NCBI GenBank assembly: GCA_013697655.1
Contig: JACCWK010000210.1
Coordinates: 1 to 32,663, forward strand
DNA length: 32,663 nt
From: Nitrosospira sp.
GTDB lineage: Bacteria; Pseudomonadota; Gammaproteobacteria; Burkholderiales; Nitrosomonadaceae
Direction: 5' to 3'
The notes under the pieces are model-generated. The model worked only from the letters and a program-made list of their open reading frames with translations. It was not told the DNA's origin and did not search any database. The stretch's first letter is position 1; the number at the start of each line of letters is the position of its first letter. Shown here piece by piece: positions 2,035-21,290 of this stretch. The translations under genes were made by a program, and so were the position numbers.

Positions 2035-2496
2035 ATGGAACGCCTCACTATATCGCTAAATGATCAACTCGCCGAGCAATTTGACGTCGTAATGCATAAG
2101 CGCGGTTATTTTAATCGGTCGGAAGCCGTGCGTGACCTGATACGGGATCTGCTTGATACCGTCCGCGTGGAAGAACATGCCGAAGGCCGATGTATTGCGA
2201 CGCTCAGCTATATATACAGCCATCACGAAAGCGAGCTGGCAAGCTCGCTTACTGCCGTGCACCATGATCACCATGATCTTACGCTATCCACGATGCATGT
2301 ACATATGGATCATGACAACTGCCTGGAAGTAGCCATCTTGAGCGGGTCTATCAAGAACGTGAAAAAATTTGCCAATCATATTATTGCCACACGCGGCGTA
2401 CGCCATGGCAAACTGCATCTCTTGCCGGTCGAGACACCACAAGAGCATTATTCTCCTGATTCTTCACTGCATGTTCATAGCGCCGCTATTGCATGA
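2035..2496 (+). CDS. nikR: nickel-responsive regulator NikR (copy 1)
   Basis: NikR is a Ni(II)-dependent repressor: an N-terminal ribbon-helix-helix binds DNA and a C-terminal ACT-like domain tetramerises and binds nickel. Seen here: MERLTISLNDQLAEQFD and NRSEAVRDLIRDLL (residues 1-40), then HHDHH at 76-80 and the motif STMHVHMDHDNCLEV with His88, His90 and Cys96. With His77 these correspond to the high-affinity site of E. coli NikR (His76, His87, His89, Cys95). At 153 residues it is about 20 longer than the E. coli protein, because of a His-containing tail (HYSPDSSLHVHSA). The start has a good Shine-Dalgarno (TTGGAGAAG). It is clearly paralogous to the copy at 15045-15506. No permease is adjacent, so its targets are probably elsewhere, including the palindromes at 18362-18463. 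Confidence 0.93.
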   Translation: MERLTISLNDQLAEQFDVVMHKRGYFNRSEAVRDLIRDLLDTVRVEEHAEGRCIATLSYIYSHHESELASSLTAVHHDHHDLTLSTMHVHMDHDNCLEVAILSGSIKNVKKFANHIIATRGVRHGKLHLLPVETPQEHYSPDSSLHVHSAAIA

Positions 2497-5264: not shown

Positions 5265-5759
5265 GCTTTTCCTTGCGTCTTGTTAAATCACAACCACTTG
5301 CCTTGTCTGTAGCCAGAGTTTTCCAATCGCGATTTTAATACTGGGCCATTTGATGTATGGTTACGTTTGCTAATCGTTCCGTATAAATGCCGTGGATATT
5401 GGATTAAAAATCTACCCAATAGCACAATTTTTTATCTTTCGGCGGGCAAATCGCAGCATGATCCGCCCCGATATTATTTATATTGGCCTGGCATCTCCGC
5501 CCGCTGCGGGCTTAGTTTGGACGAGTGTTTCTGCTTCTCGCTCGTGGTCAGACGGTTTCCCATTTTTTTAGTGGCCCGCCTGAATTACTGGAACAAGTCA
5601 TGGCTTTGCAGCCCCATCCAAACGTGGTTCGTAATAAATATACAGGAAGTCCTCTTACACGAAATTTGTAATCTGTGGGTATTTTCTAATGACTCGGACC
5701 AAAAAGTCCTGCATAGTTATTCAGGTCGGGTTGACGAATATAAAAGGAGATTTTCAGGG
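5265..5759. other. 495-bp divergent intergenic region, kinase/porin
   Basis: No convincing gene is seen. The porin frame stays open back to 5367, but the upstream residues resemble no protein and precede a clear signal peptide, so this is read as leader DNA. It should hold promoters for both the kinase (minus) and the porin-urease cluster (plus). No recognised operator, including GTATGA/TCATAC, was found. Confidence 0.5.
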
Positions 5760-7100
5760 ATGAAGAATTTAGAGGAAAGGGTATATAAAATGCCCAGCTA
5801 TGAATCAACGTCGGCTGACAGCCCTTCACAAAAAAATGCCCTCGGGACGCAAAGCGAAAATTTCTTTGCCCGGGTAGCGTTACTGGCGGTAGCGCTGGTA
5901 GTGGGATTTTCATCATTGCTGACCGGAGTTCACGCCGCGGACGACTTCAAGTCCATCAGCAAGCCCAAGTGGGCTATCGACGAGACCAAGTGGATGACTC
6001 TCGGCGTGGGTTTTCGCGGCTCAGGCGTATGGGCGGAAAGCCGCAATTACCAGAATGATTTCAGCATTGACAATGCCCGTCTCTACGTCAACGGGCAGGT
6101 CCATCAATACGTCAAATTCGAAATCAATACCGAATGCTTCTTCTGTAATAACACGCACTCCGGCGATAACCCCAAGATGTCGTACAACATGCTTGATGCG
6201 ATAGGGAAGGTCGAGATTAACCGGTATGTGAACCTCTGGGGCGGGCGTATGCTGGTTCCCACGGAGCGGGGCGAATTGAGCGGTCCTTTTTTTCAGGCCA
6301 CTCACGATGCCTTCAAGACGCCATTTTTCTCGCAGGACTTCAGCACTAAATTCGGCAGCGGGGGTGCGGGGCGCTACGGCCGCGATGACGGCGGCACCTA
6401 CTGGGGCAGTGTTGAGCCGGGTTTCATCAAGGGCACGCTGGGTTATGCCGTAGGCGTGTACCGCGGATTGCAGTCATCCACCACCATTGGCCCCAACCAG
6501 GGAAATGATGTGTTGTGGGCGGGACGCTTTACCTACAATTTCCTGAACCCCGAGAAGAATCCGGGTTATTACACCAGCAGTACCTATTTTGGCAAGGCGG
6601 GAGACATTCTGGCGCTTGCGTTCGGCGCATCGTACCAGAAAAACGGCGCGGGCTCGTTCGCCAATCGCAGTGATTTCCTTGGCCTGGTCGGCGATGTCCT
6701 GTTTGAAAAGGTTTTGCCGAAGAATATGGGGGTGGCCACGGTAAACGGGGAATACAAGCAGTTCTACGCCAATTATTCTTCCCAGGCTTTTGCCGATCCG
6801 GGTTGCCTTTGCATGTTCGATGGGAAATCCTGGACGGTCACTGGACTTTATCTGATCCCCGTCAAGGTCGGTATCGGAAAATTCCAGCCATATGGCAGAT
6901 TCACCAGCATACAACCTAATCACAGCAGCAACCGGGAGGAGATCGAGGGTGGGGTGAATTACATTATTGATGGTTTCAATGCGCGCATTTCGGCGTACTA
7001 CCAGCATGGCGATCTCTACACCAAAGGCTTGAACTATGCGCCGGGTGTGATAGGTGACAAGGTGGATGTCTTTAAATTGTCGTTTCAGTTGCAGATGTAA
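5760..7100 (+). CDS. outer-membrane porin upstream of the urease operon
   Basis: The predicted 446-residue protein has a hydrophobic export segment (ARVALLAVALVVGFSSLLTG) followed by a likely signal-peptidase site at VHA-ADDF. The mature part has alternating aromatic and polar strands with many Gly, Asn and Tyr, as in beta-barrel porins of the phosphate-selective porin-like/FmdC-like group. ATGs at 5760 and 5790 both have a Shine-Dalgarno (AAGGAG and AGGAAAGG); both leave an unusually long N-terminal region before the hydrophobic core. The last residue is Met rather than the common Phe. The gene lies 93 bp before ureD on the same strand. FmdC of Methylophilus is known as an amide/urea porin; by context this could admit urea, but that is inference. 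Confidence 0.75.
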   Translation: MKNLEERVYKMPSYESTSADSPSQKNALGTQSENFFARVALLAVALVVGFSSLLTGVHAADDFKSISKPKWAIDETKWMTLGVGFRGSGVWAESRNYQNDFSIDNARLYVNGQVHQYVKFEINTECFFCNNTHSGDNPKMSYNMLDAIGKVEINRYVNLWGGRMLVPTERGELSGPFFQATHDAFKTPFFSQDFSTKFGSGGAGRYGRDDGGTYWGSVEPGFIKGTLGYAVGVYRGLQSSTTIGPNQGNDVLWAGRFTYNFLNPEKNPGYYTSSTYFGKAGDILALAFGASYQKNGAGSFANRSDFLGLVGDVLFEKVLPKNMGVATVNGEYKQFYANYSSQAFADPGCLCMFDGKSWTVTGLYLIPVKVGIGKFQPYGRFTSIQPNHSSNREEIEGGVNYIIDGFNARISAYYQHGDLYTKGLNYAPGVIGDKVDVFKLSFQLQM

Positions 7101-7193: not shown

Positions 7194-8135
7194 ATGCGTC
7201 CTACTATTCTTACTGAAAAACCCGCAGCCAGACAGGATTCCGGCGTAGTGGTTCATCGACTTTATCCCGCGGAGCGTTCTCCTCATCCAGCGCCAGGATT
7301 GCCGCAAGCTCGCCTCGAGGCACGGCTGTCACTCGACTTCTCGAATGATAGTGGCACAACCCGCCTGGTGGGAAGGGAACATTTTGGCCCCTTGATCGTG
7401 CAAAAACCGTTTTATCCCGACGGCCGGGACCTGTGCCAGGTCGTTGTTATTCATCCGCCGGGCGGCGTAGTAGGCGGGGACAAACTGGATATTGCGGTCA
7501 AGGTCGGGGCATCGGCGAAGGTCCAGGTCACCACCCCGGGGGCGGCCAAGTGGTACAAGGCCAACGGTCATATCTCGCAGCAGGCTATTCGGCTGGATGT
7601 TGGCGCGAGTGGTTTGCTTGAATGGGTACCTCAGGAAACCATCTTTTTTGACAATGCCCACGTTCAGATTGATCATCGCGTTGAGATGGGAAAAGAATCA
7701 AGCTATATCGGCTGCGAGATACTCTGCTTTGGCCGCACCGCATCGGGTGAGTCTTTTACCGGCGGGCATATAGGGCAACGTACACGCATTTATCGCGCTG
7801 GCAAGCCGATCTGGTTCGAGCAGTTGCGACTGACTGGCGGCGGCATGGGCATGACTGGGAGCTTGGGTCTTGGCGGAAACACGGTGTGCGCCACGCTTGT
7901 TGCCGTCGGCAAGGCCTTGCCTGCCTCGACAATGGATACCGTGCGCGAAAGCCTTGGCGCAATTGCCGCAGGCCGCGGTCATTTGGGTGTTTCGCAATTC
8001 AATTCGCTGGTGGTGATGCGCTACCTGGGAAATTCCAGTGAGACCGCGCGCCGGATAATGCTGCACTGTTGGGGGCTTTTTCGCCTGGAGATGCTAGGCC
8101 GTCAGGCGATGGTACCAAGAATGTGGAATACATAA
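7194..8135 (+). CDS. ureD: urease accessory protein UreD
   Basis: UreD (UreH) forms the UreDFG complex that delivers Ni to apo-urease. Family markers seen are LIVQKPFYPDG, VIHPPGGVVGGD, the TPGAAKWYK stretch, WVPQETIFFD and the C-terminal ending LGRQAMVPRMWNT. Length (313 residues) is in the family's upper range because of about 45 variable N-terminal residues. The ATG at 7194 has no obvious Shine-Dalgarno (A-rich leader), so the start could be further in. It opens the order ureD-A-B-C-E-F-G, common in betaproteobacteria. Its stop codon overlaps a hairpin at 8132-8160. Confidence 0.95.
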   Translation: MRPTILTEKPAARQDSGVVVHRLYPAERSPHPAPGLPQARLEARLSLDFSNDSGTTRLVGREHFGPLIVQKPFYPDGRDLCQVVVIHPPGGVVGGDKLDIAVKVGASAKVQVTTPGAAKWYKANGHISQQAIRLDVGASGLLEWVPQETIFFDNAHVQIDHRVEMGKESSYIGCEILCFGRTASGESFTGGHIGQRTRIYRAGKPIWFEQLRLTGGGMGMTGSLGLGGNTVCATLVAVGKALPASTMDTVRESLGAIAAGRGHLGVSQFNSLVVMRYLGNSSETARRIMLHCWGLFRLEMLGRQAMVPRMWNT

Positions 8136-8165
8136 TGCCGTTTGTTTTAAGGGGCATTATTTTAT
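8132..8165 (+). terminator. hairpin plus T-rich tail in the ureD-ureA gap
   Basis: Arms ATAATGCC (8132-8139) and GGCATTAT (8153-8160) form a perfect 8-bp stem around a 13-nt loop, followed by TTTAT. The left arm includes the ureD stop codon. This could act as an intra-operon attenuator or weak terminator, or as an mRNA-stability hairpin. A second stem, GGCAAA/TTTGCC, follows at 8173-8192. Confidence 0.4.
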
Positions 8166-8233
8166 AGGAAAGGGCAAATTTAAAACTTTGCCGAAGCAAA
8201 TTTTAAAAAATTCACTTTACTGAGGAGGAAGCA

Positions 8234-8536
8234 ATGGATCTTACACCAAGAGAAAAAGACAAGCTGCAGATATTCACGGCGGGTTTGGTAGCGGAGCGGC
8301 GCAAGGCGCGGGGCTTGAAATTGAACCATCCGGAAGCGGTAGCGTTGATCACCTGTGCGGTGATGGAAGGCGCGCGCGATGGTCATTCCGTTGCGGAACT
8401 GATGGCGGAAGGCACGCGCATTCTCACCCGGGGCGAAGTGATGGAAGGGGTTCCCGAAATGATTCCCGACATCCAGGTGGAGGCGACATTTCCCGACGGC
8501 ACCAAACTGGTGACGGTTCACAACCCCATTCCCTAA
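8234..8536 (+). CDS. ureA: urease subunit gamma
   Basis: The protein has 100 residues, the standard size of separate bacterial UreA. Recognisable segments are [49 protein letters not shown] and [20 protein letters not shown]. With UreB and UreC it forms the (alpha-beta-gamma)3 cytoplasmic urease that splits urea into ammonia and carbamate. A strong Shine-Dalgarno (GAGGAGGAAG) sets the start. The gene is 15 bp from ureB and 98 bp from ureD, the largest gap inside the ure operon, filled with AT-rich repeats and hairpins. Confidence 0.97.
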
Positions 8537-8551
8537 ATCAGGAGATTAAAA

Positions 8552-8875
8552 ATGGCTAGAGTACCCCTAATTCCAGGCGAAATATTCGTACAGCCTGGCG
8601 ATATCGAATTAAATGTCGGCAGAAAGACCAAGTCTCTCAAGGTTTCCAATGGAGGAGACAGGCCGATACAGATTGGTTCCCACTTTCATTTTTACGAAGT
8701 CAACTCCGCAATGAAATTGGACCGGGAGGCCGCCTACGGCATGCGCCTGAACATCATGGCGGGCACGGCGATACGATTTGAACCTGGACAGGAGCGCACC
8801 GTCGAACTGGTCGAGCTTGGAGGGGATCGCACGGTATACGGATTCAACCAGAAAGTAATGGGCAAACTAAAATAA
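8552..8875 (+). CDS. ureB: urease subunit beta
   Basis: This 107-residue UreB contains the typical start [20 protein letters not shown], the stretch [17 protein letters not shown] and the [16 protein letters not shown] block near the C-terminus. UreB is the non-catalytic beta-sandwich subunit of urease. It starts behind a clear AGGAG and lies between ureA (15-bp gap) and ureC (34-bp gap). Nothing is missing compared with the family; it is a separate gene, not the ureAB fusion of Helicobacter. Confidence 0.97.
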
Positions 8876-8909
8876 AGCGTACGGTCGACAACTTACAGAG
8901 GAGCAGAAA

Positions 8910-10616
8910 ATGACTTTTAAAATTTCCCGTCAGACATATGTCGAGATGATGGGCCCCACCACCGGTGACCGCATCCGCCTGGCCGATACCGAGCTTTTTG
9001 TTGAAATCGAAAAGGATTTCACCACCTATGGCGAAGAAGTGAAATTTGGCGGCGGCAAGGTGATTCGCGATGGCATGGGTCAATCGCAGCGCAACCACGC
9101 CGATGTGATGGATACCGTGATCACCAATGCGGTCATTATTGACCACTGGGGTATCGTCAAGGCGGATGTCGGCCTGAAGGATGGCAAGATCGCCGCTATC
9201 GGCAAAGCCGGCAATCCGGACATCCAGTCCAACGTTACCATGGCCATTGGCGCGGCCACCGAAATTATCGCCGGTGAAGGCTCCATTCTCACCGCCGGTG
9301 GTATCGACAGCCATATCCACTTTATCTGTCCGCAGCAGGCCGAAGATGCCATGATGAACGGCATCACCACCATGCTGGGCGGGGGCACCGGCCCAGCGGT
9401 CGGCACCGCTGCCACCACCTGTACGCCGGGCCCCTGGCATATCCACTCCATGCTGCGGGCATCGGATGGCTTGATAATGAATACCGGCTTCTTTGGCAAA
9501 GGCAATGTCAGTCTGCCGACTCCCAATGAAGAACAGATCCTGGCTGGCGCCTGCGGCCTCAAGCTGCATGAAGACTGGGGCACCACCTTTGCCGCCATAG
9601 ATAACTGCCTGAACGTGGCGGACAAGTATGATGTCCAGGTTGCCATCCATACCGATACCATCAACGAAGGCGGCTACCTTGAAAATACCATTGCCGCCAT
9701 GAAGGACCGCACCATCCACACGTTCCACACCGAAGGCGCCGGCGGCGGCCATGCGCCGGACATCATAGCAGTAGTGGGTCTGGAAAACGTGCTGCCCTCT
9801 TCCACCAACCCAACGCGACCCTATACGGTCAATACCCTGGACGAGCACCTTGACATGCTGATGGTATGCCATCATTTGAATGCCAATATTCCGGAGGATC
9901 TTGCCTTCGCGGAATCACGCATTCGCAAGGAAACGATCGCGGCCGAGGATATCCTGCATGACATGGGCGCCATCTCGATGATGTCATCAGACTCCCAAGC
10001 CATGGGCCGTATCGGCGAAGTCGTGTTGCGCACGTGGCAAACCGCACACAAAATGAAGATCCAACGTGGCACTCTGCAAGAGGACAAGGCCAAGCACGAT
10101 AATTTCCGTGTCAAGCGCTATATCGCCAAATACACCATCAATCCAGCCATCACGCACGGTGTCTCGCACGCGATCGGCTCGGTGGAGGTAGGCAAGTACG
10201 CGGATCTTGTCCTGTGGCGGCCAGCTTTCTTCGGCGTCAAGCCCTCCATGATCCTTAAAGGTGGAATGATTACGGCAGCCTTGATGGGTGATCCTAATGC
10301 TTCGATTCCGACGCCACAGCCGGTGCACTACCGGTACATGTTCGGTGGGTTCGGGGGCGGTATCAAGACCTCCTGCTTCACCTTTACTTCGCAGGCAGCG
10401 CTTGATGGCGGCCTGGTGGATAGCCTGAAGCTCGACAAGAACCTCATCGCCGTCAAGAACACCCGCAACCTGCGCAAGAAAGACATGATTCACAACGGCG
10501 CCACCCCCAAGATGGAAGTCGATCCGGAAACCTATGAAGTGCGGGCCGACGGACAATTGCTGACATGCGGGGCGGAGGATGTTTTACCGATGGCCCAGCG
10601 CTACTTCCTGTTCTAA
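8910..10616 (+). CDS. ureC: urease subunit alpha (catalytic)
   Basis: The 568-residue catalytic subunit carries the di-nickel site: His135 and His137 (HIHFICPQ), Lys218 to be carbamylated (GLKLHEDWG), His247 (HTDTINEGG), His273 ([11 protein letters not shown]) and Asp361 ([13 protein letters not shown]). The mobile-flap Cys320-His321 is in MVCHHLN. All align one position after the Klebsiella numbering, so the enzyme should be active once loaded with nickel. The start has a strong Shine-Dalgarno (AGAGGAG). Several long antisense frames over this gene are compositional shadows. In an ammonia oxidiser the product would supply both NH3 and inorganic carbon. Confidence 0.98.
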
Positions 10617-10622
10617 GCGGCT

Positions 10623-11150
10623 ATGCTCACTTTAAATACACGAATAGCGCATGCGGATTCGATTTTCGCGCAGCTTGTACTCCCGTACGAGTTGCGCGAG
10701 AACAGCCGTCTGCGCACCGCGCTGGCATCGGGAGAGGAAGTCGCTATTCTTACCTTGCGTGGGACCGTGCTGCGCAACAATGATTTGCTCAGGGGCGATG
10801 ATGGCCGGGTAGTGCAAATCGTGGCGGCGAACGAACCTACCTACCGGATAACCTGTCATACCCGACACGATCTTTTGCGCTGTGCTTTTCATCTGGGTAA
10901 TAGGCACACCCAAACCCAGGTGGGCGAGGGTTTTCTTCGCATTTGCCAGGATAGCGTGCTCAAGGAAATGCTGCAGGGGTTGGGAGCGACCGTAGTGGAA
11001 GAAAGTGCTCAGTTCGAACCGGAAGCGGGCGCCTACAGTGGGGGTGGCCATCATCATGATGACGATGGCCACGGTCATTCCCACGCGCACGGTCCGCTGG
11101 CCCCGATTCCGGTGCATCAGAAGATCCATCGTCCGTCGGACAAGCAATAG
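10623..11150 (+). CDS. ureE: urease nickel metallochaperone UreE
   Basis: UreE binds Ni(II) as a dimer and passes it to UreG. The 175-residue protein has an N-terminal domain (VLPYELRENSRLRTALASGE) and a Ni-binding domain (RITCHTRHDLLRCAFHLGNRHT, including the family's GNRH). The His/Asp-rich tail GGGHHHDDDGHGHSHAHG (about residues 138-155) is the nickel-storage tail of Klebsiella-type UreE. It follows ureC by only 6 bp, which suggests translational coupling, and ureF begins 13 bp after it. The His-rich tail suggests capacity to buffer nickel. Confidence 0.95.
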   Translation: MLTLNTRIAHADSIFAQLVLPYELRENSRLRTALASGEEVAILTLRGTVLRNNDLLRGDDGRVVQIVAANEPTYRITCHTRHDLLRCAFHLGNRHTQTQVGEGFLRICQDSVLKEMLQGLGATVVEESAQFEPEAGAYSGGGHHHDDDGHGHSHAHGPLAPIPVHQKIHRPSDKQ

Positions 11151-11163
11151 AGGCAGGGAGACC

Positions 11164-11844
11164 ATGATGCAGACAACTTCCCTTTTACGCTTGCTTCAAT
11201 TGGCGAGTCCGTCGCTTCCTGTTGGCGCATATACCTACTCGCAGGGCCTGGAAGCTGCCATTGAGGAGGGCTCGGTAAGCGACGAGAACTCGGCCCGCAT
11301 TTGGATCACCGAAGCGCTTAGCGTGGTTGCAGATTTTGAGGCGCCGATACTTTGGCGGTTGCTGAAAGCTTTTTCGGCGCATGACGAAGCGGTGGTCACT
11401 TCCTGGAGCGAGTGTTTTGTTGCGTCACGTGATACCGCCGAATTTCGGGCGGAAACCATCCAGATGGGATATTCGTTGAGTAGATTGGTGGCGGAACTGA
11501 AGGTTGCGGATGATTCACTGCTTAGGATAATGGCGAGTCAGTCCGAGATTCCGCTGCCTACCGCATTTGCCTATGCAGCGGAGGCACTGAAAGTACCGCA
11601 TGAAGCGGCGCTGCTGGGCATGTTATTTTCCATTGTTGAGAACCAGATGCTGGTTTGCGTGAAATCGGTTCCACTTGGTCAAGTCTCAGGCCAGCGGCTG
11701 TTGCTTTCCCTGCATAGCGCGATTGAAGTTGCTGCCTGCCATGCACAGGCGCTTGACGATGACGAACTGTCCAATTGGGCGCCGGGATTGTCGCTGTTGT
11801 CCATGCAGCACGAAGTCCAATATAGCCGTATTTATCGATCCTGA
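11164..11844 (+). CDS. ureF: urease accessory protein UreF
   Basis: UreF is the helical GTPase-regulating partner in the UreDFG complex. The start MMQTTSLLRLLQLASPSLPV, then GAYTYSQGLEAAIEEG, is the family's N-terminal signature, and ESQISPLP-like and WAPGLSLLSMQHEVQYSRIY segments occur near the end. Length is 226 residues. Either ATG at 11164 or 11167 follows GGGAGA. A longer open frame from 11005 only reads the end of ureE in another frame. It is 37 bp from ureG. Confidence 0.95.
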   Translation: MMQTTSLLRLLQLASPSLPVGAYTYSQGLEAAIEEGSVSDENSARIWITEALSVVADFEAPILWRLLKAFSAHDEAVVTSWSECFVASRDTAEFRAETIQMGYSLSRLVAELKVADDSLLRIMASQSEIPLPTAFAYAAEALKVPHEAALLGMLFSIVENQMLVCVKSVPLGQVSGQRLLLSLHSAIEVAACHAQALDDDELSNWAPGLSLLSMQHEVQYSRIYRS

Positions 11845-11881
11845 ATGATCTTGCGAAATTTACCTAATTGACGGAAATAAA

Positions 11882-12535
11882 ATGACTGATACATCTAATC
11901 CCTTGCGTGTTGGAATAGGCGGGCCTGTTGGCTCAGGAAAGACGGCTTTGTGCGAAGCATTGAGCAAGAGAATGCGCGACCGGTACGAAATGGCCGTTAT
12001 CACCAATGACATCTATACCAAGGAGGATATGGAAATCCTGCTGCGAGCGGACGCATTGCCGGCGGAACGCCTGATGGGCGTGGAAACCGGCGGCTGCCCT
12101 CACACCGCCATCAGGGAAGATGCCTCAATCAACTTGGAGGCGATTGCGCGCATGACCGCGGACTTTCCGAACCTGGATCTCATCCTGGTGGAATCGGGCG
12201 GAGATAACCTTGCCTCGACCTTCAGTCCCGAACTTTCCGACCTCACCATCTATGTAATTGACGTTGCCGCTGGCGAAAAGATACCGCGCAAGGGCGGGCC
12301 CGGAATCACGCGTTCCGCGCTGCTGGTCATCAACAAGATTGATCTTGCGCCCCATGTCGGGGCGAGCCTCGAAGTCATGGCGCGCGACGCGAAGCGGATG
12401 CGTGGCGAGCGGCCATTCGTCTTCACCAATATGCATACCGGAGAGGGTGTCGATCAGATCGTTGATTTCATCATAAAACAGGGATTGCTGGATGAGATCA
12501 AGGCGCAGCACTCCCGCAGCCACACGAGTGCTTAG
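11882..12535 (+). CDS. ureG: urease accessory GTPase UreG
   Basis: UreG is a SIMIBI-class GTPase whose Ni- and GTP-bound dimer delivers nickel to urease. Seen: P-loop GPVGSGKT (residues 14-21), the metal-binding Cys72-Pro73-His74 in [13 protein letters not shown], the acidic switch motif VESGGDNL and the guanine-specificity [10 protein letters not shown]. Length (217 residues) is normal. The ATG lies after an A-rich leader with a modest GACGGA. It is the last ure gene; the urea transporter follows after 167 bp in which no gene is evident. Confidence 0.97.
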
Positions 12536-12702: not shown

Positions 12703-13659
12703 ATGGAATGGTCATTAACAATAGACAAGGCAATGCCCCGCCCTTTGCGCGTGATTCTGAGAGGGGTAGGCCAGGTATTTTTTTGCTGCAATGCGGTGAC
12801 TGGGCTTATCTTTCTGGTGGCACTTTTTATTGGCGGGGTAACAGCCGGCGCCGCGGCCACCGTGGGAGTGATAAGCAGCACCGTTGCCGCCTATCTCCTC
12901 GGTTTTTCGGAAGACGATATCGATGCGGGACTGTATGGCTTCAATGGCACGCTGGTGGGTCCCTGCCTGTTTCTGTTCCTGGAAAATTCCCCTCAGCTAT
13001 GGCTGTACGTGGTGCTTGCCTCGGTCCTGTCGAGTATTGTTTTAGCGGCGCTCATGAAAATTCTTGGCCCCTACAAGATTCCCGCCTCGACTTCCCCCTT
13101 TGTCCTTAGCTGCTGGATGTTCCTGGTTGCCGTATATTCGTTTGACAGTTTTACACGGGGACCTGTTTTGCCACCTCCCGGCACGCCTGCCATGGTAGCG
13201 GATGTCGCGGCGATTCCTGCTGACATGTGGTTTACGGCCCTCACCAAAGGCGTTGCAGAGGTGATGTTCGCGGACAGTGTCATAGTCGGTATCCTGTTTC
13301 TCACAGGTATCGCCATCGTCTCCTTGCGGGGCGCATTGATGGCGGTGGGGGGGACGATTATCGGCGTAGCGTTTCCGATAATGTTAGGAGCAAACTTGGG
13401 CCTGATCGAAATGGGGCTGTATTCGTTCAATCCGGTACTGACCATGATGGCGGTAGGATGGGTATTTTTGAAACCTGATGGTAAAAGCGCGGCGTTGGCG
13501 ATCCTTGCGGGCTTCCTTACCGTGATTTGCCAAGCCGGTCTTGCCAACTTTCTCGCGCCCATAGGCCTGCCCACGCTTACCTTCCCATTTGTGTTGGTGA
13601 TGTGGATGTTCCTGTTTGCCGCGGGAAAATCAAAATACTGGGCGGATTCCGACGCATAG
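12703..13659 (+). CDS. yut: UT-family urea transporter
   Basis: This is an integral inner-membrane channel-like urea transporter (the family of vertebrate UT-A/B and bacterial dvUT, ApUT and Yut). The 318-residue protein is nearly all transmembrane helix in two repeated halves. Each half has the duplicated motifs: GLYGFNGTLVG with IPASTSPFVLSCW, and GLYSFNPVLTMMAVG with LPTLTFPFVLVMW (the second matches LPxxTxPF). The start has a strong GGAGGT. Position directly after ureG indicates co-expression with urease, perhaps from its own promoter in the 167-bp gap. The hairpin after it probably ends the transcript. Confidence 0.95.
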   Translation: MEWSLTIDKAMPRPLRVILRGVGQVFFCCNAVTGLIFLVALFIGGVTAGAAATVGVISSTVAAYLLGFSEDDIDAGLYGFNGTLVGPCLFLFLENSPQLWLYVVLASVLSSIVLAALMKILGPYKIPASTSPFVLSCWMFLVAVYSFDSFTRGPVLPPPGTPAMVADVAAIPADMWFTALTKGVAEVMFADSVIVGILFLTGIAIVSLRGALMAVGGTIIGVAFPIMLGANLGLIEMGLYSFNPVLTMMAVGWVFLKPDGKSAALAILAGFLTVICQAGLANFLAPIGLPTLTFPFVLVMWMFLFAAGKSKYWADSDA

Positions 13660-15044: not shown

Positions 15045-15506
15045 TCAGGTAAGTGGATTGCTGTGGATATGCGATGACGCTGTGGGCGAGTGCTGTGCCT
15101 GCGTGATTTCCACCGGAACCATGTGTAATTTGCCATGCCGCACGCCGCGCGTGGCCATGACAAGGTCAGCAAAATTTCTTACGCTTAGAATCGAGCCGCG
15201 GAGGATGGCTACTTCGAGGCAGTTTTTATGATCCATATGCACATGCATGGAAGATAGAATAAGGTCGTGATGAGCATGCTGCGCCGATGCGATGCGGGTC
15301 GCCAGATCATTCTCGTGGTGATTATAAATATACGTGAGCGTGGCGACACAGTGACCTTCATTCCCTTCTTTGATGCGCTCGGTTTCCAGCTTTTCACGTA
15401 TGAGGTCGCGCATCGCCTCCGAGCGGTTGGTATAGCCGCGTGCGTGCGTGAGGTCATCAAACTGCTTAGAGAGCCGGTTATCCAGAGAAATGGTAAGACG
15501 TTCCAT
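15045..15506 (-). CDS. nikR: nickel-responsive regulator NikR (copy 2)
   Basis: This 153-residue NikR paralogue closely resembles copy 1: MERLTISLDNRLSKQFDDL and TNRSEAMRDLIREKLE form the ribbon-helix-helix, and HAHHD (76-80) plus SSMHVHMDHKNCLEV (His88, His90, Cys96) form the nickel site. It also has a His-bearing tail (QHSPTASSHIHS). All four nickel ligands are kept, so it should sense Ni. The start follows a GGGA in tctcatgggattgca. It forms a two-gene unit with the carbonic anhydrase, 2 nt downstream. Having two intact copies around one urease cluster suggests divided roles or a recent duplication. Confidence 0.93.
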   Translation of the reverse strand: MERLTISLDNRLSKQFDDLTHARGYTNRSEAMRDLIREKLETERIKEGNEGHCVATLTYIYNHHENDLATRIASAQHAHHDLILSSMHVHMDHKNCLEVAILRGSILSVRNFADLVMATRGVRHGKLHMVPVEITQAQHSPTASSHIHSNPLT

Positions 15507-16127: not shown

Positions 16128-18278
16128 TTAAAAATTGGCAATAACGCTCACCCGGAACGAGCGGCTTTCAATCGGATGGAAGTGCCTGTCGTCTATACCC
16201 GCAGCTGGCTCGCCGGGTAGTCTGGATGTGTAGAAATAATCAATCGCATGCGCGTGCGTGTTCAGTAGATTAAAGCCTTGCAGTACTACCCGAACCTTTT
16301 TGTCGAGCTTGAAACCGATCTGACCATTCAGTGTCATGGTGTGATTGGATTGAACGCTGTTATCTTCGGTCAATGGACGTTTGCCAAAATAGCGAAACTG
16401 CATGCTACCGAAAAGAGGACCGATGTTGTCCACGGCGATCGCGGCTTTTCCCACGCCTTGAATCGCGCCTGGAATGTGATTTCCGGCAGGGTCCGAGCCG
16501 GTAAAACGGGCCTTGGCCAAAGCATAATCCAGATCAACCGTCAACCAGTTATTCGGCATATAGAAGGCTGAAACCTCAACACCCTCCCGTTTGCTGGGAC
16601 GGCTTGCCTCATTGGTGCCGGCGTCGCCGACGAACAACAATTCAGATGCCAGGTCCAGCCGGAAAAAAGCCAACGAGGCCTGGAGCCCGGGAAGAATTGC
16701 AGTGCGCAGCCCGGCCTCATATCCCGTGGAACGTACGAGGGGGCTCACCCGTCCCACGGGGTCGCCGGATTTGGGATCCAGAGTGGTTGTGGTGCCACGG
16801 GCGTCGTTGCTATGAAAGCTGCTTCCATAGTTAAGATAGTATTCGGTTTTGGCCCATGGGCCAAAAATAAAACTGAGCTTGGGATTAGTTATGCTGTCGT
16901 ATTGCTGACCGGAGTTGGCGCTATTGTTGCTCTTGACATCGAACCAGTAGAAATCGCTACGCGCTCCGGCTACGCTGCGAAACTTCTCCAGCCATTGGAC
17001 GCTGTTCTGATAATACAAGCCCGTACTATTCTGGAGAATGTGGTCCCGGCGCGTGGTTGATAGCGTCTGCCGTTGCTTGGTACTCAGGAGCCCATTGTCG
17101 ATGACATCGTTCTGAACCTGGACCCCCACCGTGTTCTCGAATGCAAAGCCAGCAATATTGTTTACCCATGCATGGCTCAAATTCAATGCGGTTTGAAAGC
17201 GCTTATCGACCTGCGAAAATTGATCACCGTTTACGGGGTCATCCAGGAAGTAGGTAAAATTTGAAAAAAGGGCGAGATTACTGTGAATAGCATAGAGATT
17301 GACTTTAGTAATTCCATAATCACTGGTGTGTTGCAAGGCTCCGGACAGGCTGAAACGATGTGACTCACCGCCGTCACTGGGATCAATCGCGCCCAGACGC
17401 GAAATCAACCCACTCGATAGCGCGCGTTCGGGAATCTGGTCGGTAGAATTCCAGTTAGCGCCATACCCCATCGCAGTGATATTGAACCGGGTATTGCCGG
17501 TGTTTTGACTATAGCGCAGCACCGTATTGAATTTTTTATAATTTTCCTTCGTGACCCACGGCCCATCCTTCGTGTTGAGTTCGCCGGCAAAAAGAATGGT
17601 ACCGGCCCCCATATCCCGGGAATTGGCGACAAGCCCTCGCATGAATCCCTGGTTACCTACACTGAAATTGGCAATGCCCGCCGGCAATTTATTCAGATAG
17701 CCAATGCTGACGGCACCTGCTGAGGAGAAATCACCTTGATCCGCATAGTAGGGGCCCTTCTGGTATTGAAGTCCGGAAGCGAGTTCGGGAATAAGAAAAT
17801 TGAGATCGGTGTAGCCTTGGCCATGCCCATGGCTGCGCTGGTTAACCAACATGCCATCGACTGAGATCCTGAGGTCAGTGCCATGGTCAAGATTGAAGCC
17901 ACGTGCAAAATACTGGTTTGCTTTCCCTTCACCACTATGTTGCGTGACAATTAATCCCGGCACGCTCTCAAGCAGCTCTCCTGGACGATAAACCACGCGC
18001 TGATCGAGCTGTTTCTTGAGAACCGTGCCTTCATTGGCTGAGTTTGCCGATCCGATCAGATTGTTGCTTTTAGCTGTCACCACAACTTCATTGAGGGTCG
18101 GCACTCCAGCTGCGTGGGTAGCGAAAGGCACCCATATCATAAGACTAATAACCGGCCGGGAAATCAATGCCGGGAGGTGAGCAGCGACCCGAGACAACTT
18201 TAATACATTGGCGTAAATGAGCAGTAAAGCAGGGGTATTTTTCAACCTTCGAAGGCTAGTGGCTGACTGAGAGTCCAT
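16128..18278 (-). CDS. TonB-dependent outer-membrane receptor, candidate nickel receptor
   Basis: The receptor would move a metal or metal complex across the outer membrane using TonB energy. From the ATG at 18278 the protein has 716 residues. A hydrophobic export region ends near ATHA. A TonB box-like VPTLNEVVVTA and a plug domain follow (RPGELLESVPGLIVTQHSGE, ARGFNLDHGTDLRISVDGM, QRSHGHGQGYTDLNFLIPE), then a long beta-barrel ending RVSVIANF with the terminal Phe of outer-membrane proteins. The His/Gly-rich SHGHGQG in the plug could bind metal. An upstream in-frame ATG at 18329 is less likely. It is divergent from a metal ABC transporter, and NikR-like palindromes lie between them. Nickel as substrate is inferred from those sites; receptor assignment is solid. 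Confidence 0.88.
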   Translation of the reverse strand: MDSQSATSLRRLKNTPALLLIYANVLKLSRVAAHLPALISRPVISLMIWVPFATHAAGVPTLNEVVVTAKSNNLIGSANSANEGTVLKKQLDQRVVYRPGELLESVPGLIVTQHSGEGKANQYFARGFNLDHGTDLRISVDGMLVNQRSHGHGQGYTDLNFLIPELASGLQYQKGPYYADQGDFSSAGAVSIGYLNKLPAGIANFSVGNQGFMRGLVANSRDMGAGTILFAGELNTKDGPWVTKENYKKFNTVLRYSQNTGNTRFNITAMGYGANWNSTDQIPERALSSGLISRLGAIDPSDGGESHRFSLSGALQHTSDYGITKVNLYAIHSNLALFSNFTYFLDDPVNGDQFSQVDKRFQTALNLSHAWVNNIAGFAFENTVGVQVQNDVIDNGLLSTKQRQTLSTTRRDHILQNSTGLYYQNSVQWLEKFRSVAGARSDFYWFDVKSNNSANSGQQYDSITNPKLSFIFGPWAKTEYYLNYGSSFHSNDARGTTTTLDPKSGDPVGRVSPLVRSTGYEAGLRTAILPGLQASLAFFRLDLASELLFVGDAGTNEASRPSKREGVEVSAFYMPNNWLTVDLDYALAKARFTGSDPAGNHIPGAIQGVGKAAIAVDNIGPLFGSMQFRYFGKRPLTEDNSVQSNHTMTLNGQIGFKLDKKVRVVLQGFNLLNTHAHAIDYFYTSRLPGEPAAGIDDRHFHPIESRSFRVSVIANF

Positions 18279-18361
18279 GAAAAAGAATTCACCCTGAGAT
18301 TTTATTATTCTAGTTCTGGTGAATAGCAAAAAATCAAAACCCGATGCTCAATTTCCGTATA

Positions 18362-18388
18362 GTATGAGGTGTTTCCAATTATTCATAC
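18362..18388. promoter_or_regulatory. NikR-like operator 1
   Basis: GTATGA (18362-18367) and TCATAC (18383-18388) form a perfect inverted repeat with a 15-bp spacer, extendable by one base each side (AGTATGA/TCATACT). The E. coli NikR operator is GTATGA-N16-TCATAC, so half-sites are identical and the spacer is one base shorter. It lies 84 bp upstream of the TonB receptor start. Two nikR genes are in this window. Identity as a NikR site is inference. Confidence 0.65.
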
Positions 18389-18436
18389 TATCAAAGGACA
18401 GACTGGGCGACGATCTCGAGATATAATGTCCGGAAC

Positions 18437-18463
18437 GTATGAATAATTTTATAATGTTCATAC
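18437..18463. promoter_or_regulatory. NikR-like operator 2
   Basis: A second GTATGA (18437-18442)/TCATAC (18458-18463) pair has the same 15-bp spacer and is symmetric by one further inner base (GTATGAA/TTCATAC). A TATAAT (18450-18455) lies within it and could be the -10 of the ABC transporter promoter, so binding would block transcription. Its centre is 75 bp from that of operator 1. Confidence 0.65.
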
Positions 18464-18570
18464 ATTATATATTTATTTTTATTTTATTGTCCAGATGCCG
18501 GTGGAGAGGGTGCAAGACGGCAATCATTCGTCATCGTGCAGAAGCAGTGCTTAAAATAGAGAAAATATTT

Positions 18571-19536
18571 ATGAGAAAACTGGTCCAGTTTTTAAATATA
18601 TTTTTATGGCTTCCGTTAACACTGGTTCCTTACAGTTCGGTTCATTCCTCGGAGGCAAAAAAATTCCACATTGTGACAACCGTTGCCCCCATCACCAATA
18701 TTGTCCGGAATGTTGGCGCGGGATATATTGATGTGACGGGAATCGTCCCCGATGGAACCGATTCCCATACCTTCGAGCCGGTTCCATCGGACGCAAAAAT
18801 ACTCGGTGCGGCCGATATCATTATCGTAAATGGCCTTGATCTGGAGTTGCCGACGGTAAAGCTGGCGGAAAAAGTAAAAAAAACAACAACTCCGATTCTT
18901 CAGCTCGGTAACCGTACCTTGCGAAAGGAAGACTGGCGATTTGATCACAGCTTTCCCCGTGCGCATGGACATCCGAATCCGCACTTATGGCCCAACATAG
19001 CATTGGCCATGCGGTATGCTGAAATCGTCAGGGATAGCCTGATCGCGCTCGATCCGCAGCACAAGAAGGGTTATATCGCTAATACAGCAGCGTATCTGGC
19101 CAAGCTGCAGAAGCTGGACAATGCCATCTTTGATTGTGTGAAAAGCATCCCCCAGAACAATCGCAAGCTGGTCACGTATCACGACTCTTTTGCCTATTTT
19201 GCTCCGCGTTATGGCATGAAGGTTATCGCAGCCATTCAGCCGGCAAATTTTTCCGAGCCGGGGCCGCGAGAGGTAATTCGCATCATCAAACAGATCAATA
19301 AGGAAAAGGTGCCCGCTATCTTTGGTTCTGAAGTATTTCCGAGTAAAGCGGCGGAACAGATTGCTCGCGAAACCGGCGTCAAATTTATCGATCAGCTTTC
19401 GGATGACGAGTTGCCGCAGCCTCCCGATAACTCTTTTATTGGCATGATGACCAACAACATGGTTGTCATGACCGAGGCGCTGGGCGGCAACCCTCGCTGC
19501 ATGGCAAATGTTGACACTAGCAATGCCATACCCTGA
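18571..19536 (+). CDS. metal-binding ABC transporter solute-binding protein (ZnuA/TroA-like)
   Basis: This is a periplasmic cluster A-I binding protein for divalent metal. From the ATG at 18571 it has 321 residues, with a signal peptide (MRKLVQFLNIFLWLPLTLVP, cut near VHS). Likely ligands are His66 (DGTDSHTFEPVPSD), His138 (HPNPHLWPN) and His204 (TYHDSFAYFAPRYG), with Asp274 (FIDQLSDDE) or Glu254. A His at the third place is typical of zinc-type rather than manganese-type members. Instead of the long His-rich loop of ZnuA there is a short DHSFPRAHGHPNPH. Neighbours (ATPase, permease, divergent TonB receptor) and the NikR-like sites leave zinc, manganese or nickel open; nickel is my preferred inference. 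An upstream in-frame ATG at 18439 lies in the operator. Confidence 0.85.
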   Translation: MRKLVQFLNIFLWLPLTLVPYSSVHSSEAKKFHIVTTVAPITNIVRNVGAGYIDVTGIVPDGTDSHTFEPVPSDAKILGAADIIIVNGLDLELPTVKLAEKVKKTTTPILQLGNRTLRKEDWRFDHSFPRAHGHPNPHLWPNIALAMRYAEIVRDSLIALDPQHKKGYIANTAAYLAKLQKLDNAIFDCVKSIPQNNRKLVTYHDSFAYFAPRYGMKVIAAIQPANFSEPGPREVIRIIKQINKEKVPAIFGSEVFPSKAAEQIARETGVKFIDQLSDDELPQPPDNSFIGMMTNNMVVMTEALGGNPRCMANVDTSNAIP

Positions 19537-19553: not shown

Positions 19554-20342
19554 ATGAAATACGCGATTAGCTTAAATAACGTTACCGCTGGCTATGAGCG
19601 CAACGTGGTTTTTAGACATCTGTCACTGGAAATCTCAACCGGGCAATTCGCCGGCATAGTCGGGCCCACCGGATGCGGGAAGACCACGCTGCTTAAAACC
19701 ATATTGGGTACGCACCCTGTTTTCTCCGGCAATGTGCTTTTAAATGGGTGCTCCGTGGACAGAGTACAGCCGGGAACCATTGGTTATGTCCCGCAGTTGG
19801 GAAGCGTGGATTGGAGTTTTCCAGTCACCGTGGAAGAGGTGATCATGATGGGACTCTACACCGACAAGCGAATCTGGCCGTGGGCCGGTAGGGGAGAACG
19901 TGAGCGCATCCATGCGCTAGCTCACCGGCTCGGCATTTATGACTGCTTGCATCATCATATCGTTCATACCTCCGGCGGCCAGCGACAGCGCGCATTTCTT
20001 GCGCGTGCGTTGATTAACAGCCCAAAACTGCTGATTCTGGATGAGCCAACTTCTGGCGTCGATATTAAAACCCAGCATGAGGTATTGCATTTGCTCGGGG
20101 ATATCAGTAATGAAGGCATTACCATTTTGCTCACCACCCATGACCTTAACGCCGTCGCTTCACACCTGCCCTGGGTGATTTGTTTCAATAATGGGTTGGT
20201 GGCGCAGGGTCAGCCGCATGATATCTTCACCAACGAAATCCTGACCAGAACCTACGGTGGTGACATCGTCATAATCAAGCATGACGGTCACTTCCTGATC
20301 GCCAACAACACCCCCTTGCACCTCACGCGCAACTATTCATAA
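19554..20342 (+). CDS. metal ABC transporter ATP-binding protein (ZnuC/MntB-like)
   Basis: This cytoplasmic ATPase energises the importer. In 262 residues it shows Walker A GPTGCGKTT (37-45), the Q-loop around YVPQLGSVDWSFPVTVEEVI (typical of the manganese/zinc/iron-chelate subfamily), a TSGGQRQR signature in place of LSGGQ, Walker B LLILDEPTSGVD and the switch His in LLTTHDLNAV. It starts 17 bp after the binding-protein stop behind CAGGGATTAGGG. Its TAA is directly followed by the ATG of the permease, so the genes form an operon. Confidence 0.93.
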   Translation: MKYAISLNNVTAGYERNVVFRHLSLEISTGQFAGIVGPTGCGKTTLLKTILGTHPVFSGNVLLNGCSVDRVQPGTIGYVPQLGSVDWSFPVTVEEVIMMGLYTDKRIWPWAGRGERERIHALAHRLGIYDCLHHHIVHTSGGQRQRAFLARALINSPKLLILDEPTSGVDIKTQHEVLHLLGDISNEGITILLTTHDLNAVASHLPWVICFNNGLVAQGQPHDIFTNEILTRTYGGDIVIIKHDGHFLIANNTPLHLTRNYS

Positions 20343-21290
20343 ATGGAATTTCTTCTCGAACCCCTGGGCTATGAGTTTTTTCGCCATGGTCTGCTTGCTG
20401 CGCTAATGGTGGGTGCTTTGTGTGGCTTGGTGGGCGTGTATGTGATACTGCGCGGCATGAGTTATGTAGGCCACGGGTTGTCGCATGCTGCGTTTGGTGG
20501 TGCCGTGGTAGGCTTTACACTCAATTTTAATTTCTATGCCGGTGCAGCTGCGATGGGTCTCCTTGCCGCACTATTGATTAACCGGATCACTAAAAACGGC
20601 AAAATTAAATCGGACGCCGCGATCGGCATTGTTACTACAGCCATGTTTGCCTTGGGCGTCGTCATTATCAGCCAGGTCCGCACCTTTACTCAAAGCTTCG
20701 AGGCGGCTCTATTCGGCAATATTCTGGGTATTACCAGCAAAGACCTGCTTGTTATCGGACTGGTCACCGCGTCCACCATGATTGCGATGTTTTTCATGTA
20801 TAGACCGCTGCTCTTTTCCACCTTCGATAATGAAGCGGCGCGCGTATTCGGCATCAGGACGGGCATCGTGCAGCTAACGTTTTCACTTCTTCTTACGCTG
20901 TCAATCATTGCGTCGATGAATGTCGTCGGCGTTACCATGATTGCCGCCACTCTTATCACTCCCGCCGTGACAGCCCGCATGATGACGGACCGTTTCAGCC
21001 GGATGCTGATTTATTCCTTCATCATAGGTGCGATAACCGGCGTCGCAGGCATGTACTTGAGCTACATCTTTAATGCAGCCTCGGGAGCAACCATCGTATT
21101 ATTTGGAGCGTTATTATTTTGTTTGACGGCGGCGATCAAATTTATACGGGAAAAATTCATGCTGCGCGCCAATCTCCACCGTCATGGCGGCCTGATGCAT
21201 TTCCACCCGCACGATGAAGGTCATATCTCGCGGGATCATGAGCGTGAAAGTAGCAGCGAATCAGGTGAGGTCGCGCAAAAAGCCAAGTAA
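20343..21290 (+). CDS. metal ABC transporter permease (ABC-3 family) with His-rich tail
   Basis: The inner-membrane channel subunit belongs to the ZnuB/MntC/TroC group. The 315-residue protein has about eight to nine hydrophobic segments, with family stretches VYVILRGMSYVGHGLSHAAF, SDAAIGIVTTAMFALGV and VVGVTMIAATLITPAVTARM. After the last helix a soluble tail carries HRHGGLMHFHPHDEGHISRDH (seven His in about 21 residues) and an acidic, Ser-rich end. Such a tail could bind or sense the metal on the cytoplasmic side and is not needed in ordinary family members. No terminator is seen after it. Confidence 0.92.
   Translation: MEFLLEPLGYEFFRHGLLAALMVGALCGLVGVYVILRGMSYVGHGLSHAAFGGAVVGFTLNFNFYAGAAAMGLLAALLINRITKNGKIKSDAAIGIVTTAMFALGVVIISQVRTFTQSFEAALFGNILGITSKDLLVIGLVTASTMIAMFFMYRPLLFSTFDNEAARVFGIRTGIVQLTFSLLLTLSIIASMNVVGVTMIAATLITPAVTARMMTDRFSRMLIYSFIIGAITGVAGMYLSYIFNAASGATIVLFGALLFCLTAAIKFIREKFMLRANLHRHGGLMHFHPHDEGHISRDHERESSSESGEVAQKAK

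Follow-up and report, generated by a model that had tools for sequence, protein, structure and literature searches.

The window, i.e. the whole stretch of 32,663 nucleotides analysed here, contains a three-gene ABC transporter operon that, judged by homology, would be annotated as an importer of zinc or manganese. Two NikR-type palindromes are located between this operon and the divergently oriented gene of a TonB-dependent receptor. This raises the question whether the transporter instead imports nickel for the urease encoded nearby, as the original prediction had proposed. The named genera closest to the source organism are Nitrosospira and Nitrosovibrio.

Genes and operators of the locus

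The first gene of the operon encodes a periplasmic metal-binding protein of the PF01297 family (18571..19536, plus strand), for which we propose nickel as ligand. It is followed on the same strand by an ABC ATPase gene (19554..20342), found 3' of the binding protein gene in relatives, too, and by the gene of an ABC-3 family permease with a His-rich C-terminus (20343..21290), recognised from the ORF list and by Pfam. All three components exceed the Pfam gathering scores (PF01297 234, PF00005 99 and PF00950 234 bits). The receptor gene (16128..18278, minus strand, ATG at 18278) encodes 716 amino acids with Plug and barrel Pfam domains, a candidate receptor for nickel or a nickel chelate. Its start codon and that of the ZnuA-type gene (ATG at 18571) are 292 bp apart, and both operators lie inside this distance.

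Two nikR genes and urease genes had been named as neighbours, and both are indeed present. Copy 2 of nikR (15045..15506, minus strand) is situated downstream of the receptor gene on the same strand, copy 1 at 2035..2496 (plus strand). With 193 and 196 bits, respectively, the encoded proteins exceed the cut-off of NF002815 (83 bits) and remain below that of TIGR02793; they are identical to each other at 93 of 153 residues. Copy 2 matches the E. coli NikR structure 1q5v with 133 bits over residues 1-133. It retains the HVH...C motif, which we take to be the nickel motif, as well as the start of the first strand (MERLTIS, MQRVTIT in E. coli), presumably the beginning of the DNA-binding strand. 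The urease genes ureD, A, B, C, E, F and G occupy open reading frames at 7194..12535 (plus strand) and encode a nickel-containing enzyme together with the proteins for its maturation; their names come from reading of the proteins, and their relatives cluster as well. A urea transporter gene follows at 12703..13659 (plus strand; TIGR03441, 342 bits, cut-off 275).

A motif scan of the window confirmed the positions and the letters of both palindromes, which are exact copies of GTATGA-N15-TCATAC with no strand assigned. Operator 1 (18362..18388) precedes the receptor gene, about 84 bp from its start codon, and similarly placed sites exist in relatives. Operator 2 (18437..18463) lies about 108 bp upstream of the start codon of the ABC operon and includes the TATAAT already noticed in the original prediction (18450-18455). 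The prediction had also pointed to the 15-bp spacer as one shorter than the 16 bp of E. coli. A spacer of N15 is not unusual, since the enterobacterial consensus GTATGAT-[N13/14]-ATCATAC, as given in the part of the source available to us, equals GTATGA-N15/16-TCATAC (PMC545781).

Allowing up to two mismatches, the window contains five N15 matches compared to 0.98 expected, a number reached by none of 100 shuffles; with the N16 spacing no match was found in the window at this tolerance. In the draft genome to which the window belongs (G000; 3,026,116 bases, 258 contigs, 93.28% complete) the two palindromes are the sole exact copies. At up to two mismatches this genome shows 77 matches, close to the 60 of the reversed control, so that only exact and near-exact sites carry meaning. 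One-mismatch sites number five. One is located inside ureC (9626-9652), the remaining four (L003, L005, L006, L007) fall within open reading frames whose lengths range from 119 to 457 codons, the 119-codon frame of L005 possibly not being a gene. Because of the two-mismatch count near the control and the position of the other one-mismatch sites in open frames, a wider NikR regulon in this genome was dropped. Promoter scoring of the region was discarded as evidence, too, as the 2 promoters scored correspond to the 1.8 expected by chance.

According to the mechanism we propose, Ni-NikR would bind both operators as long as nickel is sufficient and, from this common promoter region, repress the receptor gene as well as the divergent three-gene operon. 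When nickel becomes short, repression would be lifted and the periplasm would receive nickel, or a chelate of it, through the receptor. There the ZnuA-type protein may bind nickel via three invariant histidines; the ABC transporter would then pass it to the cytoplasm, where UreE and UreG could load urease.

Operator conservation and gene order in Nitrosomonadaceae

A relative of the ZnuA-type protein was detected in 73 of 125 genomes of the family. The one in G032 (28% identical) was taken as a paralogue, leaving 72 loci. Sixty of these were fetched at length and picked without regard to sites; the operator counts refer to these 60 and omit the other 12, to which the window's own locus belongs. 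Upstream of the ABC genes, the closest gene recognised is something other than ureE in 48 loci (mostly a TonB receptor gene, otherwise nikR, another ABC gene or none). An N15 site was present in 27 of these 48 loci as exact copy, in 37 with up to one and in 43 with up to two mismatches. Counting N15 and N16 together, 38 of the 48 loci contain a site with up to one mismatch. Spacers from 9 to 21 other than N15 gave no exact site apart from one N16, which was found in L092 (genome G112) at 174 bp from the znuA-like match downstream, a natural spacer variant. As a control, 89 permuted half-sites were searched over the same loci; they occurred in 0.011 loci on average and in one locus at most. The half-sites themselves are conserved letter for letter across many loci. 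Related genomes are non-independent draws, and the locus counts therefore overstate the number of separate events.

No site with up to one mismatch was found in ten of the 48 loci (L083, L084, L085, L086, L087, L089, L090, L102, L107, L130), six of which contain an N15 site with two mismatches (L083, L084, L086, L087, L089, L090). Beyond this intergenic region, N15 or N16 sites with up to one mismatch were limited to four in the 60 loci; L091, L098 and L103 each have one in the interval from a porin gene to ureD, and the fourth falls within ureC. A search for the sites upstream of orthologues had been suggested along with the original prediction. Its outcome was mostly positive, i.e. in 38 of 48 loci, and negative at the ABC genes of the 12 loci with ureE upstream (ureE type).

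These 12 loci, out of 60, have ureE as the closest gene recognised ahead of the ABC genes, on the same strand and at a distance of 12-496 bp. Four of them (L088, L091, L098, L103) show the order ureE-znuA-C-B-porin-ureDABC together with ureF and ureG. Seven have the porin and urease genes upstream on the opposite strand, and in L119 neither ureC nor ureD was seen. An operator with up to one mismatch was absent between ureE and the ABC genes from all 12 loci, and none was detected upstream of ureE within the fetched stretches. Instead, the operators preceding ureD in three of them (L091, L098 and L103, from genomes of the Nitrosomonas group) suggest that the urease operon is itself controlled by nickel. 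Furthermore, the receptor promoter was fetched for four genomes with ureE-type loci. It contained a one-mismatch site in G009 and G060, a two-mismatch site in G075 and none in G013. The stretches around nikR of three others (G073, G019, G057) contained neither receptor gene nor operator, and the five ureE-type loci from genomes lacking NikR had no site with up to one mismatch.

The window encodes a porin-like protein, too (5367-7100, before ureD), with a weak likeness to ExtI (47.6 bits, cut-off 150). Relatives of its gene adjoin urease and ABC genes elsewhere and are 67-77% identical in those ureE-type loci that have one.

Overall, the gene order around the ABC genes varies widely among relatives. 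At the operator in Nitrosospira sp. Nl5, the position of the receptor gene is taken by an ABC operon of five genes, which belongs to the peptide/nickel class (L076:2552-8059). The Nik and Opp models match this operon, all below their cut-offs. Such an operon at the same operator would speak for a nickel context.

Co-occurrence with urease and NikR

Urease, called by UreC at E<=1e-100, was detected in 75 of the 125 family genomes. Among the 117 genomes outside the genus g2, 68 have both urease and the ABC genes, four the ABC genes only (G020, G029, G048, G103), none urease only and 45 neither. The exception G048 is probably due to an assembly gap, since ureD, ureA and ureB run to the contig end in its locus L126. 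Seven of the eight g2 genomes carry a urease of 64-65% identity, and none of these seven has a ZnuA-type gene. Shared ancestry was considered by means of an rpoB tree of 111 genomes, from which 12 genomes without rpoB match and two with a partial match were omitted. Outside g2, 19 independent pairs differ in urease. The ABC genes differ in the same direction in 16 of these pairs, in the opposite direction in none and not at all in three (median p 3e-5). Including g2, 15 or 16 of 20 independent pairs showed the same direction and again none the opposite.

NikR was detected in 64 of the 125 genomes, namely in 63 of the 72 with the ABC genes and in one of the 53 without. Five of the nine ABC genomes lacking NikR are represented among the 60 fetched loci, and no site with up to one mismatch was found there. 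The distance between nikR and the ABC genes is below 5 kb in 50 and below 15 kb in 58 of the 63 genomes (one NikR place per genome, the nearer being taken). Relatives of the receptor with at least 68% identity occur in 54 of the 125 genomes (53 at E=0; G098 in two pieces). The ABC genes are present in 53 of these, G012 being the exception.

In the order as a whole, the binding protein was detected at E<=1e-70 in 10 of 399 sampled genomes, all of them belonging to the window's own family. A scan of named GTDB contigs yielded 184 relatives, the best 80 of which were analysed, some loci being short. Among these best 80 of 184, 51 loci contain NikR. In four Nitrospirota loci (L212, L218, L219, L224) nikR is inserted between znuA and znuC, giving the order znuA-nikR-znuC-znuB. 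For L218 the identity of the genes in the operon was checked by Pfam, and an OprB-type porin gene precedes znuA. In L214 and L221 nikR is located about 2.1-2.3 kb upstream. One-mismatch N15 sites precede the ABC genes e.g. in L208, L213 and L216. The four loci with nikR in the operon showed no one-mismatch operator in the 500 bp before znuA, and their NikR may therefore read another sequence or sit elsewhere. Urease is clearly present in 16 of 25 genomes of this wider set (one partial), doubtful in that of L216 and absent from eight. All four Nitrospirota genomes with nikR in the operon have urease, with no urease match at the locus up to 9 kb to either side.

Physical linkage explains part of the co-occurrence, as urease is found within 20 kb of the ABC genes in 54 of the 68 genomes having both. 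It might be that urease, nikR, receptor and ABC genes simply travel as one genomic block, in which case their co-occurrence would say little about function. This appears very improbable to us. In 14 of the 68 genomes both were kept although they are more than 20 kb apart or on separate contigs; most are on separate contigs, and on one and the same contig the separation amounts to more than 1 Mb in G051, 225 kb in G062 and 83 kb in G052. The diverse gene orders, the strict conservation of the operator half-sites in many loci and the four Nitrospirota with urease elsewhere in the genome argue against a mere block as well.

Nickel, zinc or a broader range of metals

The binding protein has three histidines, His66, His138 and His204, that are invariant in an alignment of 19 family members. 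Together with Ser258 they are invariant in 81 sequences including other phyla, in the case of His204 partly by construction because the search peptides included this region. YfeA, PsaA, Synechocystis MntC and Listeria MntA have Glu at the position of His204. Their following Asp aligns with Ser258 in YfeA, PsaA and MntC and with Pro257 in Listeria MntA. Two His, one Glu and one Asp are what we take to be the metal-binding residues of the manganese and iron proteins. This site of MntABC and YfeABCD is not found in the binding protein, which has His204 for Glu and Ser258 or Pro257 for Asp.

An AlphaFold model of the protein (pTM 0.80, mean pLDDT 80.4, residues 122-137 poor) has YfeA as best structural match, closely followed by MntC, AztC and related proteins. 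Among the NCBIfam models, zinc and manganese equivalogs come nearest, and every score is below the cut-off, e.g. 82.3 bits for ZnuA (NF007091, cut-off 268) and 178.5 bits for AztC (NF040870, cut-off 350). A binding protein of SBP family 5, as in the NikABCDE type, is not encoded at this locus, PF01297 being found instead.

These folds and nearest models, together with the PF01297 and ABC-3 homology, would fit an ordinary zinc (or manganese) importer, the NikR-like palindromes being incidental or belonging to another regulator. We regard such an importer as most unlikely. Forty-four of the 50 urease-less family genomes have no PF01297 match of any kind, indicating that the ZnuA-type function is dispensable without urease and telling against a housekeeping role in zinc supply. 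PF01297 as a whole was detected in 74 of the 125 genomes, comprising the 72 with the ABC genes, G032 and a sub-threshold fragment in G003; the six urease-less genomes with a match are the four ABC-only genomes, G032 and G003 with its fragment. The equivalog scores below cut-off and the replacement of Glu and Asp in the site described above speak against zinc or manganese, too. Furthermore, no Zur box was detected between receptor and ABC genes (18279-18570) with the E. coli consensus word, with which a divergent Zur box could be missed. The receptor gene contains the only Zur-word match of the locus, at 17003 with three mismatches, and the total in the window corresponds to chance. A Fur-like box, searched with a consensus word as well, was likewise absent from between the receptor and ABC genes.

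In the wider set, a Fur-family protein (single query) was detected in one of the best 80 of 184 loci, L222 from Herpetosiphonaceae, where its gene (8192-8656) adjoins the ZnuA-type gene. The wider clade may thus include zinc transporters and not be devoted to nickel throughout. The homologue in L222 shares the same residues, so that the His/Ser pattern alone cannot tell nickel from zinc.

Other nickel importers are unevenly distributed among the 125 family genomes, with matches to NicO (NiCoT) in 4, to HupE/UreJ in 48 and to CbiM/NikM in none. A search of G000 (93% complete) for the three families NiCoT, HupE/UreJ and CbiM gave no match to any of them. A strong full-length HupE/UreJ match (cut about 1e-49) is present in 24 genomes, 21 of which have no ABC genes, as if the importers had replaced each other.

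Nine loci (L358-L366) of eight genomes encode a receptor homologue in frame with a HupE/UreJ domain, the fused frames comprising 900-936 codons. An example is L358:3770-6478, the locus for which the Pfam domains were checked. Three of the fusions were aligned, showing 47-48% identity to the receptor of the window. In G042, genes read from their proteins as ureF, ureG, urea transporter and carbonic anhydrase precede the fusion gene. HupE/UreJ relatives transport nickel or cobalt, and the fusion of a receptor homologue to this domain would speak for a nickel context. As such a chain combines proteins of the inner and the outer membrane, it would need cleavage. The junction looks like the end of the permease, where the last membrane helix gives way to a stretch that resembles a signal peptide and mostly ends with HAQ or NAQ. 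The fusion is not tied to urease, since urease was matched neither in G059 (recognised as fusion-bearing by frame lengths) nor in G076, which carries a fusion, too. In the 700 bp ahead of the fusion frames, as far as the stretches reached (L361 starts at a contig edge), no operator with up to two mismatches was found.

Alternatively it might be that the transporter imports divalent metals more broadly, nickel plus zinc or cobalt, and is regulated by NikR because nickel is the critical cargo. We consider this possible and rather unlikely. The range of HupE/UreJ relatives would fit such an importer, and a site of three His that lacks the customary acidic ligand would be compatible with zinc, cobalt or nickel. 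Moreover, the fold family binds several metals, FpvC e.g. having been solved with Ni2+ (6r44). However, the co-occurrence is with urease, and zinc is needed universally, yet most urease-less genomes lack this class of protein.

The operators, the linkage to nikR in two phyla, the co-variation with urease, the gene order with the nickel-chaperone gene ureE and the three importer families unseen in G000 make a NikR-repressed outer- and inner-membrane nickel route for urease clearly the best reading of the locus. Such a route through a Znu-like ABC transporter was the core of the original prediction, which is supported by the conservation of the sites as well. We infer NikR binding, repression and nickel transport from sequence and hold the route to be correct in all likelihood. 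Points against it are the ten siteless loci among 48, the nine NikR-less genomes among 72, the siteless ureE-type and Nitrospirota loci, the g2 genomes with urease and without the ABC genes, and the eight urease-less genomes among 25 of the wider set. In ammonia oxidisers, the transporter labelled by homology as one for zinc or manganese is thus very probably a nickel importer feeding urease. Somewhat less firmly, we think it likely that the ZnuA-type clade of Nitrosomonadaceae, other Proteobacteria and Nitrospirota constitutes a distinct nickel-importer family, characterised by a three-His site, Ser for the acidic ligand and linkage to nikR, and would serve ureolytic nitrifiers as their principal source of nickel. 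Some of these organisms would make a receptor of this kind and HupE/UreJ as one polypeptide that is probably cut at the signal-peptide-like junction.

Comparison with known nickel and zinc systems

The locus provides a strong candidate for a nickel-importer family of urea-using ammonia oxidisers, which are important to nitrogen cycling in soil and water, and in this clade the names of ABC genes that homology assigned to zinc or manganese transport may be wrong. A survey from 2009 counted 62 bacteria with nickel-dependent proteins and without a nickel transporter; in its part available to us, Znu-class ABC transporters are not named among the nickel transporters (PMC2667541). A literature search covering titles and the openings of abstracts, with few subscription papers, returned no description of a Znu-type nickel importer under NikR or of a HupE-TonB fusion, which does not establish novelty in print.

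NikMNQO, NiCoT, HupE/UreJ and UreH have the same role as proposed here and are often found beside urease, but belong to different protein families, according to the accessible part of the same survey (PMC2667541). AztABC, ZnuABC, MntABC and YfeABCD are homologous in binding protein, ATPase and ABC-3 permease. The window's transporter differs from them in scoring below the equivalog cut-offs, in its NikR-type operator and in its linkage to urease, and its ligand pattern is unlike that of Yfe, Mnt and Psa.

In Helicobacter, the TonB receptors FrpB4, FecA3 and NikH transport nickel under NikR or nickel control and serve urease, with FecDE/CeuE or NikABDE-like systems as inner-membrane partners (PMC3856676, parts available). 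For H. pylori, the sections at hand of a further source give NixA and NiuBDE as such partners (PMC7840056). The window resembles these systems in a TonB receptor with putative NikR control for urease; the inner-membrane partners differ, and the window's receptor is recognised by its generic TonB domains. The E. coli system nikABCDE is similar in its regulator, as NikR matches in sequence along its full length, in metal-site motif and in first strand and the operators have the same half-sites and spacer class. In contrast to the peptide/nickel-class ABC transporter of E. coli, that of the window belongs to the Znu/Mnt/Yfe class and shares its operator region with a TonB receptor.
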